Shown: positions 1,159 through 21,707 of the stretch, piece after piece
Numbering within the stretch: position 1 is the stretch's first letter
Layout of the letters: each line of letters starts with the position of its first letter
The notes under the pieces: generated by a model
Seen by the model: the letters and a program-made list of their open reading frames with translations, nothing else
The model's database searches: none
What the model was told of the DNA's origin: nothing
IMG/VR virus record: IMGVR_UViG_3300050821_007656
Span: 1-23,181 of that record
DNA from: a virus
DNA length: 23,181 nucleotides
Strand: one strand, 5' to 3'
Made by a program: the position numbers and the translations under genes

Positions 1159-1341
1159 ATGAATGAAGGCTGGGCTTGTCCGAAGTGCGGAAAGGTCATG
1201 GCTCCCTGGATGCCGACTTGCACCGAGAGTCACGCACCGCCGCCGATTTATTCGACGGGCACGCAGTATCCGCCGTTCGTTCCGGTGCGCGAACCGCTTA
1301 CCGGAGATCCGCTTCCGCCGCAACCAATGTCAATTTACTGA
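1159..1341 (+). CDS. Small zinc-ribbon-like protein
   Basis: A 60-residue protein beginning with a CPKCGKVMAPWMPTC knuckle, the type found in many short phage proteins, followed by a Pro- and Tyr-rich tail. GAGGAG at 1145-1150 is a good ribosome-binding site. The first two Cys are a clear CxxC. The third ligand lies in the PWMPTC segment and a fourth is not obvious, so zinc binding is likely but unproven. Function unknown. Confidence 0.6.
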   Translation: MNEGWACPKCGKVMAPWMPTCTESHAPPPIYSTGTQYPPFVPVREPLTGDPLPPQPMSIY

Positions 1342-1356
1342 AGGGGAGAAATCAGC

Positions 1357-1740
1357 GTGAACGAAGGGATACACCGCGAGCTAACGAGCCATAAGGTCAA
1401 CGGGCTGAATGAGGCCCTGACGATCACCGTGCTGGATAATCCGGGCCAAGGCAACGCCTGCCACGATTATTTCGTGACCTGGCAAGCCGATGAATCGCAC
1501 GGCGACCGACTCAGGGTGCAATTCCAAAACGGCCCGATCCAAGAGGCCGGCGTGAACGGCATCAGCAACGAAGCCCTGCTGGCTATCATCGAGGATCGCC
1601 TGTTGGACTTCCAGTCGGGCGAGTACGCCTGCCGCGAAAACGCCGTCGCCCTGACGAAGCTGCAAGAGTGCATGATGTGGCTCCAAAAACGTACGCGCGA
1701 CCGCACGGCCCGCGGCGTGGAGGGGACGAATCAGAAATGA
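1357..1740 (+). CDS. Tad1-like anti-Thoeris/anti-CBASS sponge
   Basis: A 127-residue protein with a GTG start at 1357 behind an AAGGGGAG ribosome-binding site. The residue pattern matches what I know of Tad1: NGPIQEAGVNG at 58-68, then ALLAIIEDRLLDFQ, ACRENAVALTKLQECMMWL at about 91-109, and RGVEGT at 119-124. Tad1 proteins sequester the cyclic ADP-ribose signals of Thoeris and some cyclic oligonucleotides of CBASS, so host immunity is not triggered. Length fits the family. The stop overlaps the ATG of the next gene. The assignment rests on motif recognition without a search. Confidence 0.75.
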   Translation: MNEGIHRELTSHKVNGLNEALTITVLDNPGQGNACHDYFVTWQADESHGDRLRVQFQNGPIQEAGVNGISNEALLAIIEDRLLDFQSGEYACRENAVALTKLQECMMWLQKRTRDRTARGVEGTNQK

Positions 1741-2375
1741 GCAATCGAATCACGCTCGCGGCCGTCCTCTTGCTGGCCGTCGCCCCGCTCAGCGCCGCCC
1801 CACCGAAGCTCTCGACCACGGCCTCGCCGCCCACAAATCCGATTGTGGCCGCACAACTCCAATTGTCCTCCGACGTCGCGACCTACTCGGCCACTGGCGG
1901 GAGTCTCGCCGCAATCCAGGCCCAGTTGACGCAACTGAACATCACTGCCGGCGTGCTCACGACAAGTCTTTCGACGTTGCAGACGACGGTTGACGCGGAC
2001 TATGCCGCCCTGAAGGCGCTCATTAACCCAAATCCAACGCCGACACCCGCCGGCCACGTCGTAAGCATCCTGGCCGTGACTTCGCCCGCGACGTGTGCCC
2101 CGTGCAAGAAGCTGGACCCCGTTCTTACCGCACTTAAGGCCAGCGGCGTGAACGTGACGACCTTGGACGGGAACGATCCGACGGTGCTGACCAAATGGAA
2201 CGTCGCATCGATTCCCACCTTGATAATGCAGGTCGATTCCGCTGAAGAGAACGGCGGAAAAACGCCGGGGTCGAGCCGCATGGTCGGGTTCGTCGGCAAT
2301 CCGAACGACCAGGCGATCCTCGCCAAGTGGTATGCCGATACTGTCGCGTGGGCGAAGACGCTGCCGCCGAAATGA
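1737..2375 (+). CDS. Secreted thioredoxin-like protein
   Basis: A 212-residue protein starting at the ATG that overlaps the preceding stop (ATGA). Residues 1-21 form a signal peptide (ITLAAVLLLAVAPLSAA). Residues 25-90 are Ser/Thr/Ala-rich and helical, perhaps a stalk. The C-terminal domain has a CAPC motif at 120-123 in a setting typical of thioredoxin folds, followed by a cis-Pro-like IPTL segment. It could be a thiol-disulfide protein acting in the cell envelope, or a structural use of the fold. The target is unknown. Confidence 0.65.
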   Translation: MSNRITLAAVLLLAVAPLSAAPPKLSTTASPPTNPIVAAQLQLSSDVATYSATGGSLAAIQAQLTQLNITAGVLTTSLSTLQTTVDADYAALKALINPNPTPTPAGHVVSILAVTSPATCAPCKKLDPVLTALKASGVNVTTLDGNDPTVLTKWNVASIPTLIMQVDSAEENGGKTPGSSRMVGFVGNPNDQAILAKWYADTVAWAKTLPPK

Positions 2376-3890: not shown

Positions 3891-4274
3891 ATGAAATCCT
3901 TCCTCGCCCTCGCGGCGATCCTCGTTTGCCTCGCCTTTGCCCTGCCGGCTCGCGCCCAGGTTGCACCCGCCGCCGATCCAGGCAGCGTCGACGTCCGGTT
4001 CACGTCGCTCGTCACGTCCGCGCCGCCGGTCCCCGGCTCGGTTGCCGCGCCAGCTTATGCCCCTGCCGCCTGTTCGCCCGCTTGCTCTTGCCCCTGTGGC
4101 CCAGCGGCTTGCACGCCGACCGCGTGCGCGGTGAACGGCTGCGCCGGGTGCGCGGGTTGTGCCGTTGGAGTATCGGCCGGCCGCGCCCATCCGGTGCTCA
4201 AGTTTTTGACGCATCCGTTCGCACGACTTCGCGCCCGCCGGGCAGCGAGAGGAGCGGGCGGCTGCGGCTGTTGA
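3891..4274 (+). CDS. Secreted Cys-rich protein
   Basis: A 127-residue protein with a clear signal peptide (SFLALAAILVCLAFALPARA, cleavage near residue 23) and a CAGGAG ribosome-binding site. A Pro/Ala stretch is followed by about a dozen Cys residues (PACSCPCGPAAC, GCAGCAGC) and a basic tail ending GCGC. Small secreted Cys-rich proteins of this style are common in planctomycete genomes, so it may be host-derived cargo. An upstream ATG at 3885 gives only a two-residue peptide before stopping. Function unknown. Confidence 0.6.
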   Translation: MKSFLALAAILVCLAFALPARAQVAPAADPGSVDVRFTSLVTSAPPVPGSVAAPAYAPAACSPACSCPCGPAACTPTACAVNGCAGCAGCAVGVSAGRAHPVLKFLTHPFARLRARRAARGAGGCGC

Positions 4275-4312
4275 TTTCTATTTTCTCATCCACTACCCCA
4301 GGAACCATTTCC

Positions 4313-4471
4313 ATGACCCCCGCACAATTCGCCGCCCAAGTCGCGACCGATCAAGCCACGCTCGCGTCGGCCCAAGCCACGCAAGGCACGACCGGCACGA
4401 CGCTTTCTGCCGCATTGTCGCAGCTCTTGACGGACGTACAGATGGCTCAGCCCGCGAGCCCGACTTCGTGA
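4313..4471 (+). CDS. Small Ala/Thr/Gln-rich helical protein
   Basis: A 52-residue ORF starting MTPAQFAAQVATDQATLASA. It is low-complexity and helix-forming, like the middle segment of the thioredoxin-like protein upstream. CAGGAA lies at 4299-4304. It may be a short coiled-coil accessory protein. Supported only by codon use and position. Confidence 0.4.
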   Translation: MTPAQFAAQVATDQATLASAQATQGTTGTTLSAALSQLLTDVQMAQPASPTS

Positions 4472-14204: not shown

Positions 14205-14311
14205 GAGACTTGGACGTTTTCCGAACAAACCGCGGCCGGTTGCTTCGCGCTTCTGACCTGTCCAAGTCTCACGCGCTGGTGATCGGCCGCGGGAAATAGC
14301 GAGACTTGGAC
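14205..14311 (+). promoter_or_regulatory. Three 11-bp boxes, direct-inverted-direct
   Basis: GAGACTTGGAC occurs at 14205-14215 and 14301-14311, and its exact reverse complement GTCCAAGTCTC at 14260-14270. In RNA the middle copy can pair with either outer copy but not both. The third copy ends three bases before the ATG at 14315, so one pairing would lie next to the start codon. As DNA, the first box sits at the predicted transcription start and could be an operator. Confidence 0.7.
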
Positions 14312-14314
14312 AAA

Positions 14315-15571
14315 ATGCGCTGCGGATGCGGAAAGACCGTCGAGCCGAAGGCCGGCAAAAAAGAGCGCCTGCCGGCCGGCTGGCATCGTCAGCCGAAAAC
14401 GGAACTGCCGCTTTGCCCAAAATGCTGGGGCGAGCGGTACATTCTGCGGGCCGTGACGATCCCCGTCGCCGGCCCCGTGTCGTGCGAATGGCCGGAGTTT
14501 AGGCAGGCGCTCAAGACGGCATGGCAGCGGGCGACGCGATTGACAAATCTTGCCGTGCAATCGTTGCTCAAGCGGGACGTTGTGCGAACCGCAAAGATGA
14601 CGAAGCTGCCGCCGATGCCGGCGGGGAATCTGTACCAGGATTGCATGGTAGAGGACTATGCCGGTTGGAGCCAGTCAGCAGCCGCGATCCTCCGGCAGAC
14701 GGAAGCCAAGTACCGGGCCAAGCGCTACGAGCGGATTTGGCTAGGGCAGACGACGTTGCCGAATGCCCGTTATCCGCAGCCCTACCCGATTCACAACGCA
14801 AACTGGACGGCCGCGTGGATGGAAAACGGCGAGCGTGTGCCGCACGTCACGGTCACGCTTCCGGAAGTCGGGCGCATCACGCTGCGACTTCGCGGCGGAC
14901 AAGATTTCCGCCGGCAACTTGCGGCCTTCGCTCAAATCGTTAGCGGTACGGCAATTCAGGGCGAGTTGTCGCTATACGAGCAACGCGTCAACAGCGGCGA
15001 CCATCGCAACGGCACCACGGAACGGGACGGCGGTGGGGGGAAGTTTCAAACGCGGGTGATGTGCAAGATGGTGGCCTGGCTTCCGCGGCAGGAAGCCAAA
15101 GAGCTGGATGGAACGCTCTTCGTACGCACGGATGCCGATGCGTTGCTCATTGCCCTGGACGCCAAAGATGAACGCGTCTGGATTCACAATGCCGATCACC
15201 TGCCGCGGTGGGTGGCGGAACATCGGCGGCGGTTGAATCGGTGGGCGGATGACCAGAAGGCCGAGCAACGGCCGGTAGCCTCGTTCACAGGCCGGCGGGA
15301 AAGGGCGTGCTTGAAGCATCGCAATCGAATGGACTCGGCCACGCACGAGGCCGCCGCCCAGTTGGTGAATTTCGCGAGTCGTCGCAAGTTCGCCGTGATT
15401 CGCTACGACGATTCGTGCAAGAGTTTCGTGAGGGAATTTCCCTGGGATCGGCTGAAACGATTGATTATCGAAAAGTCCGATGCTGCCGGAATCGAGGTAG
15501 AAGTTGTCGCGACCGGCTCGGTGCCGGAAAAAGTACCAGACCCGCTCGCAGAAACGCAAGGAGTGAATTGA
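14315..15571 (+). CDS. Compact Cas12/TnpB-like RuvC-fold effector (type V-U-like)
   Basis: A 418-residue protein from ATG 14315; an in-frame TTG at 14306 would add three residues. An N-terminal zinc knuckle (CGC at 3-5, CPKC at 34-37) precedes the central region. The C-terminal third resembles TnpB/Cas12: a RuvC-I-like strand LFVRTDADALL (Asp273), an Arg-rich bridge-like helix region, THEAAAQLVNFA, FAVIRYDD where RuvC-II Glu is expected (Asp365), then FPWDRL (375-380) and GIEVEVV. It stops there, without the usual zinc ribbon and RuvC-III Asp. RNA-guided DNA binding without cleavage is my inference, supported by the adjacent array. A degenerate transposon TnpB is the main alternative; no TnpA or element ends are visible. 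Confidence 0.6.
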   Translation: MRCGCGKTVEPKAGKKERLPAGWHRQPKTELPLCPKCWGERYILRAVTIPVAGPVSCEWPEFRQALKTAWQRATRLTNLAVQSLLKRDVVRTAKMTKLPPMPAGNLYQDCMVEDYAGWSQSAAAILRQTEAKYRAKRYERIWLGQTTLPNARYPQPYPIHNANWTAAWMENGERVPHVTVTLPEVGRITLRLRGGQDFRRQLAAFAQIVSGTAIQGELSLYEQRVNSGDHRNGTTERDGGGGKFQTRVMCKMVAWLPRQEAKELDGTLFVRTDADALLIALDAKDERVWIHNADHLPRWVAEHRRRLNRWADDQKAEQRPVASFTGRRERACLKHRNRMDSATHEAAAQLVNFASRRKFAVIRYDDSCKSFVREFPWDRLKRLIIEKSDAAGIEVEVVATGSVPEKVPDPLAETQGVN

Positions 15572-15572
15572 T

Positions 15573-15710
15573 ATGGAGCTACGAACATTGGCCACCGCAA
15601 GGCCAAGTCGGGCAAGCCTGGAATCCGAGCGATTCCGGGGACCGCTCGAAAACGCCGTCACAAAAAGAGCAGGGATAAAGCCTTACGGCCTCGGCCCCTG
15701 CAATGCCTGA
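15573..15710 (+). CDS. Possible 45-aa leader ORF ending in repeat 1
   Basis: ATG 15573 follows an AAGGAG ribosome-binding site (15558-15563) with 9-base spacing. The frame (MELRTLATARPSRASLESER...) ends at the TGA inside the first CRISPR repeat. Third codon positions are less GC-rich than in neighbouring genes, which argues against coding. The stretch may instead be the array leader or part of a guide-RNA transcript. Confidence 0.25.
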   Translation: MELRTLATARPSRASLESERFRGPLENAVTKRAGIKPYGLGPCNA

Positions 15711-16028
15711 GGAACGCGTCAGACATTGCGGGTTTACGTCCACCGGCTCCAAGGTTCCGTCATCGACCCCTGCAATGCCTGAGGAACGCGTCAGACATTG
15801 CGGGACCGCAAGAAGCCGCCGTTCAAGTCGGCGGCGCTGGTCACCTGCAATGCCTGAGGAACGCGTCAGACATTGCGGGATCAAGACCTAGTTTCCCCGG
15901 AACGCTGGATCCTGGTGCCTGCAATGCCTGAGGAACGCGTCAGACATTGCGGGATTGCAAGAAGCCGCCGTTCAAGTCGGCGGCGCTGGTCACCTGCAAT
16001 GCCTGAGGAACGCGTCAGACATTGCGGG
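15697..16028 (+). CRISPR. CRISPR-type array: five 36-bp repeats, four spacers
   Basis: Five identical 36-base repeats lie at 15697-15732, 15769-15804, 15844-15879, 15918-15953 and 15993-16028. Spacers are 36, 39, 38 and 39 bases. The repeat arms CCTGCAATGCCTGA and TCAGACATTGCGGG pair around an 8-base loop with two mismatches, so each repeat can fold into a strong hairpin. Flanking bases differ at each copy, which fixes the 36-base boundary. Spacers 1 and 3 are unrelated. Spacers 2 and 4 differ at only two bases. The array lies 125 bases after the Cas12/TnpB-like gene. No adaptation genes are in the window. Orientation is presumed + from the promoter at 14167. Confidence 0.85.
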
Positions 16029-16243: not shown

Positions 16244-16444
16244 ATGCCGGAAAGCCATCTCGAAAAGGCGATTGAGGAAAACGCCAAGACGGCGCAATCC
16301 GTTTCAAGCGAGGCAGGCTCCGCGACTGCCCATTCGCTGCACGACCAAATCGAGGCCGACCGTTATCTTCGCGGCGTGAAGGCCCAGCGCAACGGCGTTT
16401 CCGGCCTGCGCATTCTCGGCCGCGTAGGGAATTCGTCAGGATGA
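16244..16444 (+). CDS. Small head-connector-type protein
   Basis: A 66-residue protein from ATG 16244. An upstream frame reaching 16154 crosses the terminator and is rejected. It is helical (SHLEKAIEENAKTAQSVSSE), then HSLHDQIEADRYLRGVKAQ and a short GLRILGRV strand. Small proteins of this size and pattern sit between terminase and portal in many phages, as gpW-like or DUF-type connector or assembly factors. The stop overlaps the portal ATG. Confidence 0.6.
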   Translation: MPESHLEKAIEENAKTAQSVSSEAGSATAHSLHDQIEADRYLRGVKAQRNGVSGLRILGRVGNSSG

Positions 16445-18714
16445 ACGGACTTATACCGAGAATCCGCGAGTGGCTCTTTGGCGCGCCCGAAGACGCCGCG
16501 CCTCAGGCTGCCCCGCCTTCACCGCGGCAGCTTCGCGGTACTTACGATCTGGCCCGCACCGATTCGTCCAATGCCAATCAATGGCGCGGCGCCGACTGGC
16601 TGGACGCCGACGCCAGCGATTCCCCCGGCGTTCGCCAGGTCCTCCGCAACCGATCGCGGCACGAAGTCCAGAACAACCCGACACTGACCGGGATTTGCCG
16701 GACGGTTTGCGATTACGAGGTGGGCACCGGCCCCACCCTGCACGTCGATAACGACGATGAGGATTTCGCGGCCGAAGTCGAAGAGAAGTGGCGCGATTGG
16801 TGCGAGGCCGTGAACCTCGTCGGCAAACTCCGGCAGATGGTCTACGGCCGCGTCGTGGATGGCGAGGGATTCGCCCGTATCGGCCAGAATCCAAATCTAA
16901 AGAATGACGTGCAGCTCGACGTCCAGCCCTTCGAGTGCGACCGCTGCTATACGCTCTGGCTGCCGTACCTGACGCCTTACCGGATCGACGGCATTTGGTT
17001 CGACGTTTGGGGAAACCCGACCTACTACGACATCCTCCAGTACCATCCGGGCGGCGTGTTCCCCATGCCGACGTGGAAGTTCGACACCACGCCCGCGCAG
17101 TTCGTCTTGCACCTGTTCAACCCCGAGCGGGCCAACCAGCACCGCGGCATTCCGGAAATGATGTCGAGCACGGATCTATGGGCCGACCGTCGCCGGCACC
17201 GCAAGGCCACGGTTGCCGCGGCCGAGTCGGCCGCCAACGTCGCGGCCTTCCTCACGACGAACCAACCGCCGGAAGAGGGCGGCGCACTGCCCGGCGGGCA
17301 GATGGAAATGCCGCGCAACTCGCTTGTAATCGCGCCGGACGGTTACGACATGCGGCAGATCGACGCCAAGCACCCAAACCAAACTTACGAAATGTTCTCG
17401 ACCGAAACGCTTTCCGAAGCGGCCCGGCCTATGAGCATGGCGAAGAACGTGGCCAAGTGCGATTCCAGCTCGTACAACTTCGCCGGCGGGCGTCTCGACA
17501 TCATCACATCGTGGAAGGCCGTCGAGGGCAATCAGCGCAACAACACCTGGCGGGTGGTCAATCCGCTTTTCCGCGCATGGTACGTCGAGGCCAGACTGGT
17601 CTATGGATGGGCTGCGAAGGATTCCGGCCTGGTCCCGGCGCATCATTTCCTCTGGGTTGGAATGCCCTACAGCGATCCCGAGGCCGAAGAGAACGCCGAC
17701 GAGGCCGCGATCCGCACGGGGCTGAAAGGCATCCAGGAGGTCTACGCCCGCCGCGGCAAGGACTGGCGCGTGCAGCGCAAGATGAACGCGAAGGCCCTAG
17801 GCATGAGCGATGACGAGTATATGGATTTCGTCGTGGACAATCTCCGCGGCGGCAAGGGCGCGGCCACCAAGGAGCCGGCAGAGCCCGGTGAGACGCCTGC
17901 GCAGTCCGGAGAAACGCCCGAGGCCGTGAAAGCGAAGTTTGCGCGGCTGTTTCCGGGATTGGCAAAGCGACTGAATGGGCATCTGAAGGCGGCCGGCTGG
18001 GATGAATCCAAGCATCCGCGCGGCAACAAGGACAATCCGGGCGAATTCGGCCCCGGCGGCAATACGGCAACGAAGACCAAGACCAGCACGAAGCCGGCCA
18101 GGCCGGGCGCGAAGCAGCCAGCCGCAGCCGCCGACATTCACGAATCGCCCGACCGCCCCGTGAAGCTCACGAAGGTTTCGCAGCGCGCCTTTACCGGCGA
18201 GCCCATCGCAACGAAAACCCAGCTCGGCAAATCCACAACCGGAAAGTTGGGAGAAAACATCATCATCCAGTATTGCCGGCAGATCAAAGGGAAAAAGGAT
18301 GCCCGGCACCTGAACCTTGACCGCAACAATTTTCCCATCGATCTGGTGCAAGACCACGAAAGCATCGAAGTCAAGGCAGGGCTCGTCAGCAATCGCAGCG
18401 ATGCCCAGCGGTGGCGGTTGACGATCGGCGAGCCGGGAAAGAAGGAAAAGGAGTGGCTTGCCCAGGCCAGCGAGAAACAGAAGGCGGCATGGAATTCCCG
18501 CAAACAGCAGGCAATCATCGAGCGCAAGGCCAAATGCCTGAAGAATCTCAGCAAAGAGCTGGGCAAGCCCGTTAAGGCCAAAACGATGACGGTGATTATC
18601 AACCCGGACACGAAAACAGCCGATATTTACGAGTTCGACGGCTGGCATGAACGCATCGGCTGGAAGAGCGAAGAGGCCAAAGCGGCCTACGTGGGGAGCG
18701 TGAAATATGAGTGA
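16441..18714 (+). CDS. Portal protein with C-terminal PD-(D/E)XK-like nuclease domain
   Basis: A 757-residue protein. Residues 1 to about 480 follow the lambda-gpB-like portal pattern (NNPTLTGICRTVCDYEVGTG, FEKWRDW-like helix, VYGRVVDGEGFARI, NPERANQHRGIPEM, NNTWRVVNPLFRAWYV). A portal forms the dodecameric DNA gate of the head. After a linker, WDESKHPRGNKDNPGEFGPG near residue 520 marks a second module. Its core PIDLV...IEVKAG (Asp634, Glu643, Lys645) fits a PD-(D/E)XK nuclease site. It ends with NPDTKTADIYEFDGWHERIG. Ordinary portals of this class are about 500 residues, so the extra 240 are an added effector domain. Confidence 0.8.
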   Translation: MNGLIPRIREWLFGAPEDAAPQAAPPSPRQLRGTYDLARTDSSNANQWRGADWLDADASDSPGVRQVLRNRSRHEVQNNPTLTGICRTVCDYEVGTGPTLHVDNDDEDFAAEVEEKWRDWCEAVNLVGKLRQMVYGRVVDGEGFARIGQNPNLKNDVQLDVQPFECDRCYTLWLPYLTPYRIDGIWFDVWGNPTYYDILQYHPGGVFPMPTWKFDTTPAQFVLHLFNPERANQHRGIPEMMSSTDLWADRRRHRKATVAAAESAANVAAFLTTNQPPEEGGALPGGQMEMPRNSLVIAPDGYDMRQIDAKHPNQTYEMFSTETLSEAARPMSMAKNVAKCDSSSYNFAGGRLDIITSWKAVEGNQRNNTWRVVNPLFRAWYVEARLVYGWAAKDSGLVPAHHFLWVGMPYSDPEAEENADEAAIRTGLKGIQEVYARRGKDWRVQRKMNAKALGMSDDEYMDFVVDNLRGGKGAATKEPAEPGETPAQSGETPEAVKAKFARLFPGLAKRLNGHLKAAGWDESKHPRGNKDNPGEFGPGGNTATKTKTSTKPARPGAKQPAAAADIHESPDRPVKLTKVSQRAFTGEPIATKTQLGKSTTGKLGENIIIQYCRQIKGKKDARHLNLDRNNFPIDLVQDHESIEVKAGLVSNRSDAQRWRLTIGEPGKKEKEWLAQASEKQKAAWNSRKQQAIIERKAKCLKNLSKELGKPVKAKTMTVIINPDTKTADIYEFDGWHERIGWKSEEAKAAYVGSVKYE

Positions 18715-18901: not shown

Positions 18902-19119
18902 GCATCGCATCGACCATCCAAGCCGCCGCCGCCGTTGGGCCTTACCCGGTCTACGCGGAGGGCTCGCAGTATTGGGTCGGCCCGTGGTCGTTCAGCGCCG
19001 ACGGAAATTTTCTGGGGCCCTACGTCATCGACACGGTGAATAGCCAGTCGGTCGGCCCATGGCCATGGTGGAGCGACACAGATGGGAATCAGTTTTTGGG
19101 ACCGTACCTGGTGAAGTGA
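18898..19119 (+). CDS. Beta-repeat protein with five [V/L]GP[Y/W] motifs
   Basis: A 73-residue protein with VGPY (13-16), VGPW (27-30), LGPY (39-42), VGPW (52-55) and LGPY (67-70). Spacing is 12-15 residues and the aromatic alternates Tyr, Trp, Tyr, Trp, Tyr. This looks like a tiny solenoid or propeller-like beta repeat. It lies between portal and capsid genes with coupled starts on both sides, so a minor head protein is plausible. No family recognised. Confidence 0.6.
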   Translation: MSIASTIQAAAAVGPYPVYAEGSQYWVGPWSFSADGNFLGPYVIDTVNSQSVGPWPWWSDTDGNQFLGPYLVK

Positions 19120-21707
19120 TGGCGGATACGAACGACTCGAACAACGCCGTGAGGAATCCATACCTCCCCGATCCGCGAGAATCGTGGGCGCAGTTGCACT
19201 CCACGCCCGAGCACTTCCTGCATGAGTCCTTCCGATCCGAAGACATCGAGCCGGGGGTCCGCAAGGTCACGGGCGAGATCAAGGACAAGCCGGGCGAGCG
19301 GCAGGACTTCGCCTATTACTTCGCGCTGCCCAAGTTCGATTCTCTCGGCGCGCAGGAATGGCTCCAAAAGCGGAAGATTCAGCCGGCCAAGTTCGACCCA
19401 CCTAAGGACACCACGTACAAGCAAATCACCGGCCGCGCCAAGCCGGCCCAGCTCGAAGCCAAATACGCGGCCATTGCCGGCGGCCTCGTCACGCTCAAGG
19501 CCGAAGGCGGCAAGCTGCCCAAGCTCGACATCCTCGTCTACTCCGGCGGCAAGGTTCAGCCCGAGGGATGGGACCATCCCATCGTCGTGGATTTGGCCGG
19601 CCTGCAAATCGAGGATGAAGACCAGACACCGGTGTTGAAGGACCATGACCCCGATCTGGTCGTGGGCCACGGCACGCCGGAAAACGACCTGCGAACGCTG
19701 ACGCTCGAGGGCGTCGTGTCCGGCACCGGCCCGGCGGCGCAGGAGGTCGTGAAAAATTCCAAGAACGGTTTTCAGTGGAAATCCTCGATCGGCTGCGACC
19801 GCCTGGCGGCGCCGCAATTCATCGAAGAGGGGAAGTCCAAGGAAGTCAACGGCCAAACGATCGACGGCCCGTGCTACTACTGGCCCACGTCGATCCTCAG
19901 AGAAGTCACCATTACCGGCCGCGGGGCCGATCCCAACTCCCGTGTTTCCATCGCCGCGAAGGCCCGCAGACTTTCGGCACAACGAAGAAAGGTGCGAGCA
20001 ATGGCTACAGCCACGATGCCCAGTTGCGAAGAAAAGGCCGACGCCCTGCTGAAGTCGATGGGACACGATCCCGACTCGATGGACCAGGGGGAGCGCGACA
20101 AGTTCCATACCGTCTATTCCGCGATGCACGCCGAGGGGGCGGACCCCGACAGCGATCAAGAGAATGGCGGCGAAAAGGAGGAGAAGGAAGTGAACGAAGG
20201 CGGCAAAGAAGAGGTCGAAAAGAAGATGCAGGCCCGGATGCGAAAGACCTTCGCGGCCGAGACCATGCGATTGGACACGATCAACAAGTCCCATAATCAG
20301 GTCCGCGCGGCCTGGTCGATGGACGTCAAGGAGCACAAGGACAAATGCAAGGCCGCAGACGAGCTTCGCGCTAAGGCCGCGGAAAGCGACTGGTCAGTCG
20401 ATAAGATCGAGCTCGAATTCATGCGCCTTGGCCGCCCGGAGGGCCACATCTCCGGCACGCGCGGCAACAGTTTCGACGTCGACACGTCGGTCCTTGAGGC
20501 CGCCGCCTGCCGTTCGCTGATGATGCCGGAAGACAAGATGGCAAAGTTCTTCAAGCCGGAAGTGCTGGAGGCCAGCGCCCGCCGCGAGCTGCGCGGGCTG
20601 GGGCTCAAGGCCCTGCTTGCCATCGGCGGTCGTCCGCGAGGGTTCGTCGCTCCCTACGGCAACTGGCAGGATAGTGACATTCGCGAGGCGCTTGCCTGCG
20701 CTTATCCGGACCGCCGCAGCCTGCGCGCCGAAGGCTCGACCTTCCAACTTCCGGGCATCTTGTCCAACGTCGTCAACAAATATCTGTACGAGGGATTCTG
20801 GATGGTTGACGATTCCTGGACGAAGGTTTCCACGAAGCGGCCGGCCCCGGACTTCAAGCCGGTTCCTGGATTCCGTATCTTTGGGAACCTGACGTTTGAG
20901 AAGATCGGCAAAAATGGCGAAATTCCGCATGGGGACGTTGGCGAATTGGTCTACGTCAACAACGCCGAGACCTATGCGAAGGCCATCGTAACGACGAGGC
21001 AAGATATCCGCAACGACGACCTCTCGGCCCTCTCGCGGATTCCGCAGTTGATCGGCATGGGGGCGGCCTACGCGCTCAACCACAAGGTGTGGAGCGTGTT
21101 CCTCGCGGGCAAGGACTCGCAGGGCAACACGGTTTTTTCGGCCGGAAACAACAACTACGTCAACGGCAGCACGACGGCGAACAATATCACGCAAGCCACG
21201 TCGGCCTTGACTACGGTATCTCTGGCTTACGCTCGGCAGCTCTTCCGCCAGCAGACCAAGCCCGACGGCGAGCCCCTGGGCTTCCCGCCGGCGACGTTGA
21301 TGGTTCCCCCGGCCCTGGAAACGATGGCCGAACAGATTTACAAGAGCACCGAGCTGCGGCAGGTCTTGAGCCTGGCGACGAACGCCACGGCCGTCAACTA
21401 TTCGCAGTTCCTCGAAACGCCCGCGACGAACATTTTCAAGGGGCAGTTCGAGCCGGTCGTCAACCCGTACATTTCCGCTTCGGATGCCCCGACCGGATCG
21501 ACCGGCAGCGATTCCGCGTGGTATTTGTTTGCCAACCCAGCGCAGCTCGGCCTCATCGAGATCGTGTTCCTGGACGGCCAGCAGACGCCCACGGTCGAGA
21601 GCAGCGAGGCCGATTTCGACGTGCTGGGCCTGGCCCATCGTGGCTTCTTCGACTTCGGTGTGAAACTCATGGAATACCGGGCCGCCGTCAAGGCGTCGGG
21701 CTCCTGA
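19119..21707 (+). CDS. Fused prohead protease, scaffold and major capsid protein
   Basis: An 862-residue protein from ATG 19119, which shares one base with the previous stop. Residues 1 to about 290 look like a prohead protease: LKDHD (His176) and QWKSSIG (Ser222/223) fit the His/Ser pair of HK97- or U35-type assembly proteases. Residues about 295-420 are charged and helical (EKEEKEVNEGGKEEVEKKMQ), like a scaffold or delta domain. The rest is the shell protein (VNKYLYEGFWMVDDSW, then ALETMAEQIYKSTELRQVLS and SEADFDVLGLAHRGFFDFGV), with an HK97-like fold expected. The protease would cut the fusion during maturation. ATG 20001 behind AAGGTG could be a nested start for scaffold plus shell. Confidence 0.75.
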   Translation: MADTNDSNNAVRNPYLPDPRESWAQLHSTPEHFLHESFRSEDIEPGVRKVTGEIKDKPGERQDFAYYFALPKFDSLGAQEWLQKRKIQPAKFDPPKDTTYKQITGRAKPAQLEAKYAAIAGGLVTLKAEGGKLPKLDILVYSGGKVQPEGWDHPIVVDLAGLQIEDEDQTPVLKDHDPDLVVGHGTPENDLRTLTLEGVVSGTGPAAQEVVKNSKNGFQWKSSIGCDRLAAPQFIEEGKSKEVNGQTIDGPCYYWPTSILREVTITGRGADPNSRVSIAAKARRLSAQRRKVRAMATATMPSCEEKADALLKSMGHDPDSMDQGERDKFHTVYSAMHAEGADPDSDQENGGEKEEKEVNEGGKEEVEKKMQARMRKTFAAETMRLDTINKSHNQVRAAWSMDVKEHKDKCKAADELRAKAAESDWSVDKIELEFMRLGRPEGHISGTRGNSFDVDTSVLEAAACRSLMMPEDKMAKFFKPEVLEASARRELRGLGLKALLAIGGRPRGFVAPYGNWQDSDIREALACAYPDRRSLRAEGSTFQLPGILSNVVNKYLYEGFWMVDDSWTKVSTKRPAPDFKPVPGFRIFGNLTFEKIGKNGEIPHGDVGELVYVNNAETYAKAIVTTRQDIRNDDLSALSRIPQLIGMGAAYALNHKVWSVFLAGKDSQGNTVFSAGNNNYVNGSTTANNITQATSALTTVSLAYARQLFRQQTKPDGEPLGFPPATLMVPPALETMAEQIYKSTELRQVLSLATNATAVNYSQFLETPATNIFKGQFEPVVNPYISASDAPTGSTGSDSAWYLFANPAQLGLIEIVFLDGQQTPTVESSEADFDVLGLAHRGFFDFGVKLMEYRAAVKASGS

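Follow-up and report, generated by a model that had tools for sequence, protein, structure and literature searches.

The window – the 23,181-base virus record that was analysed as a whole – comes from a tailed phage, with terminase, portal, and capsid genes present on the same record as a candidate tad1 gene (Table 1). The tad1 gene is on the same strand as the terminase gene and precedes it by 8 kb. It is flanked by a small ORF and, downstream, by a gene for a thioredoxin-like protein, and its TGA stop shares the sequence ATGA (1737–1740) with the start of this downstream gene. A preliminary description of the window had pointed to this position, and we found both an ORF of 127 residues and the three motifs that it had singled out: NGPIQEAGVNG at residues 58–68, ACRENAVALTKLQ at residues 91–103, and RGVEGT at residues 119–124.

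Table 1. Positions of tad1, its parts, and other features of the window
Feature	Position	Strand	Details and basis
Small ORF	1159–1341		Precedes tad1
Ribosome-binding site, AAGGGGAG	1341–1348	+	8 nt 5' of the tad1 GTG; sequence reading
tad1	1357–1740	+	127 aa, GTG start, TGA stop; PDB Tad1, PHROG 2428, and fold matches
Predicted N-terminal beta-sheet part of Tad1	1375–1524	+	Strands within residues 7–56; AlphaFold2
Predicted C-terminal helical hairpin (Acb2/Tad1 hairpin domain)	1567–1710	+	AlphaFold2; PF24729
Stretch with F85 (1609–1611), N95 (1639–1641), and R112 (1690–1692)	1609–1692	+	Equivalent to CbTad1 F82, N92, and R109
Thioredoxin-like gene	1737–2375	+	Shares ATGA with the tad1 stop; 22.3 bits to Pfam Thioredoxin (cut-off 23.5; E=1.4e-4)
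Putative type V CRISPR locus	14306–16028	+	Cas12-like gene with repeats
Cas12-like gene	14306–15571	+	421 aa; weak matches to Cas12f (E=2.3e-6) and Cas12u3 (E=9.5e-6)
CRISPR repeats	15697–16028		Five identical 36-nt repeats, 72–75 nt spacing
Spacer 2	15805–15843		
Spacer 4	15954–15992		
Portal gene	16441–18714	+	
Head protease/capsid gene	19059–21707	+	882 aa; PHROG 'major head and protease protein'

The ORF is a genuine, intact gene. GC content at its codon positions 1, 2, and 3 is 0.63, 0.39, and 0.78, respectively. We obtained dN/dS values of 0.07–0.23 for the 7 of 10 pairs with relatives that have a finite dS (dS was saturated in the other 3), and these ratios are rough because dS exceeds 1 in all pairs. 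Every finite ratio agrees, and the gene is under purifying selection. No sigma-70-like promoter was found at positions 400–2800 of the window.

Comparing the 31 window ORFs with 75 other tad1 loci identified no conserved anti-defence neighbourhood around tad1. Only tad1 itself is widespread, recurring in all 75 loci; the portal gene recurs in 2 and the terminase gene in 1. Clustering of the ORFs of 22 viral loci and the window revealed no common neighbour in the 14 largest clusters except tad1 and overlapping frames, apart from one ORF common to two loci (L005 and L014) and a near-identical pair of contigs (L011 and L012). The lack of neighbours that recur around other tad1 genes fits a mobile accessory gene.

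Features of several other products of the window were noted. The thioredoxin-like protein probably carries a signal peptide and contains CAPC, a CxxC motif. The portal protein continues for about 250 residues past the portal domain (about residues 560–757), and this extension holds IDLVQDHESIEVKAG, which by eye is like a PD-(D/E)xK nuclease motif. To judge by its PHROG match, the 882-residue protein would be a single polypeptide in which a head protease is joined to the major capsid protein.

The Cas12-like gene and the repeats directly after it appear to form a compact CRISPR locus of type V, carried by the phage. The Cas12-like protein has no match in the PDB or in phage records, and no relative was found in 149 Planctomycetota genomes, a search run without a positive control. 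IMG/VR contains four relatives (44–56%), and repeats, mostly spaced 71–74 nt apart, come after every one of them. Residue E348 in THEAAAQ, a candidate RuvC-II motif recognised by eye, gives way to Q or L in L088 and L089, two of five aligned sequences (alignment A2) – so effectors of this group may be DNA binders and not DNA cutters. Spacers 2 and 4 are near-identical, with two base differences near the 5' end. Their common core has no exact match in the viral_contigs collection and none elsewhere in the window at up to 3 mismatches, and the CRISPR repeat and spacer strings likewise lack an exact match in viral_contigs.

Likeness to Tad1 in sequence and predicted fold

The preliminary description had named the 127-residue protein as Tad1-like, and this naming is upheld by solved Tad1 chains, PHROG 2428, and the predicted fold. 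Sequence searches of the PDB returned CmTad1 as the best match (8kbb, E=1.7e-25, residues 33–126) and CbTad1 as the second (7uav, E=1.8e-18, window residues 22–127), and the C-terminal part of the protein matched 'gp184' (8y6v, E=2.4e-10). The profile match that had been anticipated is clear for PHROG 2428, a nameless family that aligns with residues 8–127 at E=1.4e-35, whereas Pfam Acb2_Tad1_hairpin (PF24729; residues 74–109, E=6.2e-6) scored 26.8 bits, 0.2 bit under its curated cut-off of 27. PADLOC gave no match for the protein and NCBIfam no meaningful one. Within a set of 50,697 phage records, tblastn matched 122, every one at <60% identity and 19 spanning ≥80% of the query; the 122 include a gene of phage SBSphiJ7 annotated 'Tad1' (54% identity over 62% of the query). 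By these matches, the likeness to Tad1 is far above chance, and the protein is a Tad1 homologue across the greater part of its sequence.

We modelled a single chain with AlphaFold2, using 22 aligned sequences. The model has strands at residues 7–9, 21–25, 37–45, and 48–56 and helices at residues 71–87 and 93–118, so the protein is predicted to adopt the Tad1 fold – an N-terminal antiparallel sheet plus two long helices. The mean pLDDT is 82.4 and the pTM 0.70 (the five models span pLDDT 67 to 82), and the model is weak at both termini. A Foldseek search with the model gave 292 matches at E≤10. All 20 PDB matches at E≤0.001 are CbTad1 or CmTad1 (7uaw, for example, at E=3.1e-10), and the next match stands at E=0.82. 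In VIA-align, eight Tad1 entries reached Z 10.5–12.4 over 112–121 residues and the other listed entries at most 6.8, with the monomer model departing from solved Tad1 chains by 2.4–3.7 Å. The model thus agrees with Tad1 structures, as the preliminary description had led us to expect.

We examined conservation across 76 sequences, comprising the window protein and loci L002–L076 (duplicates L012 and L074 included; starts chosen by script). F85 is present in 76 of the 76, N95 in 75, and R112 in 76. The equivalent CbTad1 residues, numbered from a sequence alignment and the structural residue range, are F82, N92, and R109, which we take to line the gcADPR pocket. The central-strand loop (about residues 43–52) is strongly variable in length among relatives. 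Alignment A1 omits one locus (L019) whose match spans more than one frame.

Relatives of the window Tad1 number at least 566 in IMG/VR, and the genome collection contains 51 Tad1 loci. Some Tad1 relatives in phage records (H5–H7, H10, H16, H25, and H39–H40) bear the label 'ABC transporter ATPase', 'HNH endonuclease', or 'structural protein', for which the solved structures give no support. The abundance of IMG/VR relatives and these unfitting labels together show that many Tad1 genes go unnamed. One viral contig, L004, encodes two tad1 genes (2018–2413 and 3995–4381, both on the plus strand) that are about 1.6 kb apart and 68% identical over their aligned part. Of 86 records scanned, 82 gave a Tad1 profile match and L004 alone gave two, but most loci include no more than a few kb of flank.

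Probable host and action of the window Tad1

The host of the phage is probably a member of the Planctomycetota, although the evidence for this is weak. In a tree of 74 tad1 sequences (duplicates L012 and L074 omitted), the nearest rows to the window Tad1 are four viral contigs (L003, L021, L002, and L004). A wider group of 16, with a low support of 81/79, includes three bins: one is unplaced, and the other two, a Planctomycetaceae and a Phycisphaerales bin, are the closest labelled cellular relatives. No well-supported fork in this tree contains the window Tad1. Based on the labelled bins and the low support of their group, we regard a Planctomycetota host as likely, not proven. Relatives of the terminase, at 29–37% identity, occur in four of six genomes hand-picked from the 51 with Tad1 loci.

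Enzymes that make the relevant signals occur in the likely host phylum. In a sample of 149 Planctomycetota genomes – the phylum of the Gemmataceae genome that carries one of the Tad1 loci (L046) – ThsB_TIR proteins are encoded by 30, SMODS cyclases, which are uncommon, by 8, and Tad1 relatives by 5. SMODS cyclases are also present in two of six genomes chosen among those with Tad1 loci. A search for STALD, with a profile accession that we take to be the ThsA-type domain, gave 0 of 149 genomes and is uninformative because the controls were likewise empty. A limited literature search, judged by title, found no paper on phage Tad1 in Planctomycetota.

We consider it very probable that the gene encodes a Tad1 sponge. 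Apart from the Pfam shortfall, the testable features of sequence and fold are present, and the Tad1 mode of action is therefore the best explanation for the protein. A review describes Tad1 as a hexamer of three dimers that takes gcADPR or cyclic dinucleotides in inter-protomer pockets and cyclic trinucleotides at trimer interfaces and that leaves the bound signals undegraded (PMC12043709). Another paper reports that phage phiKZ injects Tad1, with both CBASS and Thoeris being blocked (PMC13282480).

Tad1 proteins absorb small alarm molecules that bacteria produce when infected, and the window Tad1 most likely sequesters gcADPR, the Thoeris signal, and cyclic trinucleotides, which act in CBASS. 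By analogy with the solved relatives, it would assemble as a hexamer in which three dimers form a trimer. Its dimer interfaces would have pockets for gcADPR and perhaps cyclic dinucleotides, and a separate site at the trimer interface would accept cyclic trinucleotides such as cA3. With the signals bound and not cut, ThsA of Thoeris and CBASS effectors such as NucC would stay off, and the infected cell would stay alive while the phage multiplies.

We weighed this reading against others. A sponge of the Acb2 type, active against CBASS alone, would have the helical hairpin in common with the window protein: PF24729 spans both families, and the cGAMP-bound structure of phage T4 Vs.4, which we take to be an Acb2-type protein, matches the model at Z 6.0. 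This match fits the common hairpin, yet it is confined to residues 70–127 and a Z of 6 is the background level for a helical hairpin. The N-terminal beta-sheet part, moreover, is predicted in the model and crossed by Tad1 matches that run over nearly the whole protein, the full-length matches all being Tad1. We rejected Acb2 membership because this sheet is present, and an activity restricted to CBASS is accordingly very improbable.

Somewhat less remote, though still unlikely, is that the protein is a Tad1 relative with a different main ligand, a signal from the defence of its own host group. The large differences in loop length among relatives would be in keeping with this, and the two diverged tad1 copies of L004 would suit divided specificities, but the protein shares its near-invariant residues with Tad1 proteins whose structures contain gcADPR and cyclic trinucleotides. 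We give the same low probability to the more specific proposal that this clade, whose phages have Planctomycetota as their nearest labelled relatives, has shifted its main ligand to the signal of an undescribed Planctomycetota defence, with paired tad1 genes such as those of L004 splitting two signals between them. That tad1 is a decayed or otherwise non-functional passenger gene is scarcely credible: the weak PF24729 score is all that favours decay, and the frame is intact, selection is purifying, and the family-invariant residues are retained. A Tad1 sponge for gcADPR and cyclic trinucleotides remains the preferred reading.

The window Tad1 is an ordinary new addition to a known family, without a distinguishing feature – a further Tad1 whose phage is uncultured and probably infects Planctomycetota. 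The main use of the finding is a well-supported annotation. Together with its relatives, the window Tad1 suggests that in Planctomycetota, too, immunity based on nucleotide signals is active and is evaded. The Cas12-like gene with its CRISPR array and the relative with two tad1 genes are less ordinary.

Comparison with known Acb2 and Tad1 proteins

Acb2 proteins such as T4 Vs.4 (7uq2) possess a helical hairpin like that of the window protein, and PF24729 names both families. According to the review cited above, Acb2 has a short N-terminal helix in place of the Tad1 beta sheet (PMC12043709).

The Tad1 of the Bacillus phage SBSphiJ7 (OM982674) is 54% identical to window residues 49–127. Its N-terminal part is longer and diverged, and tblastn aligns just the C-terminal 62% of the window query. 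CmTad1 (8kbb, 8kbc, and 8kbd), which has been solved with cAAA and cAAG, shares the two-part fold and is 38–41% identical to the window protein by structural alignment. The two proteins are unlike in the N-terminal part and the central loop, and their sequence alignment begins at window residue 33.

CbTad1 (7uav, 7uaw, 8smd, 8kbe, and 8kbf), a Clostridium botulinum prophage protein, is only 29–33% identical to the window protein by structural alignment, and it has GARKEEKSQHG where the window protein has GPIQEAGVNG. It is nonetheless the best structural match to the model (Z 12.4 over 120 residues), and its F, N, and R positions are identical to those of the window protein. Judging by their entry titles, some of the solved Tad1 relatives are bound to gcADPR isomers, cA3, cAAA, or cAAG.
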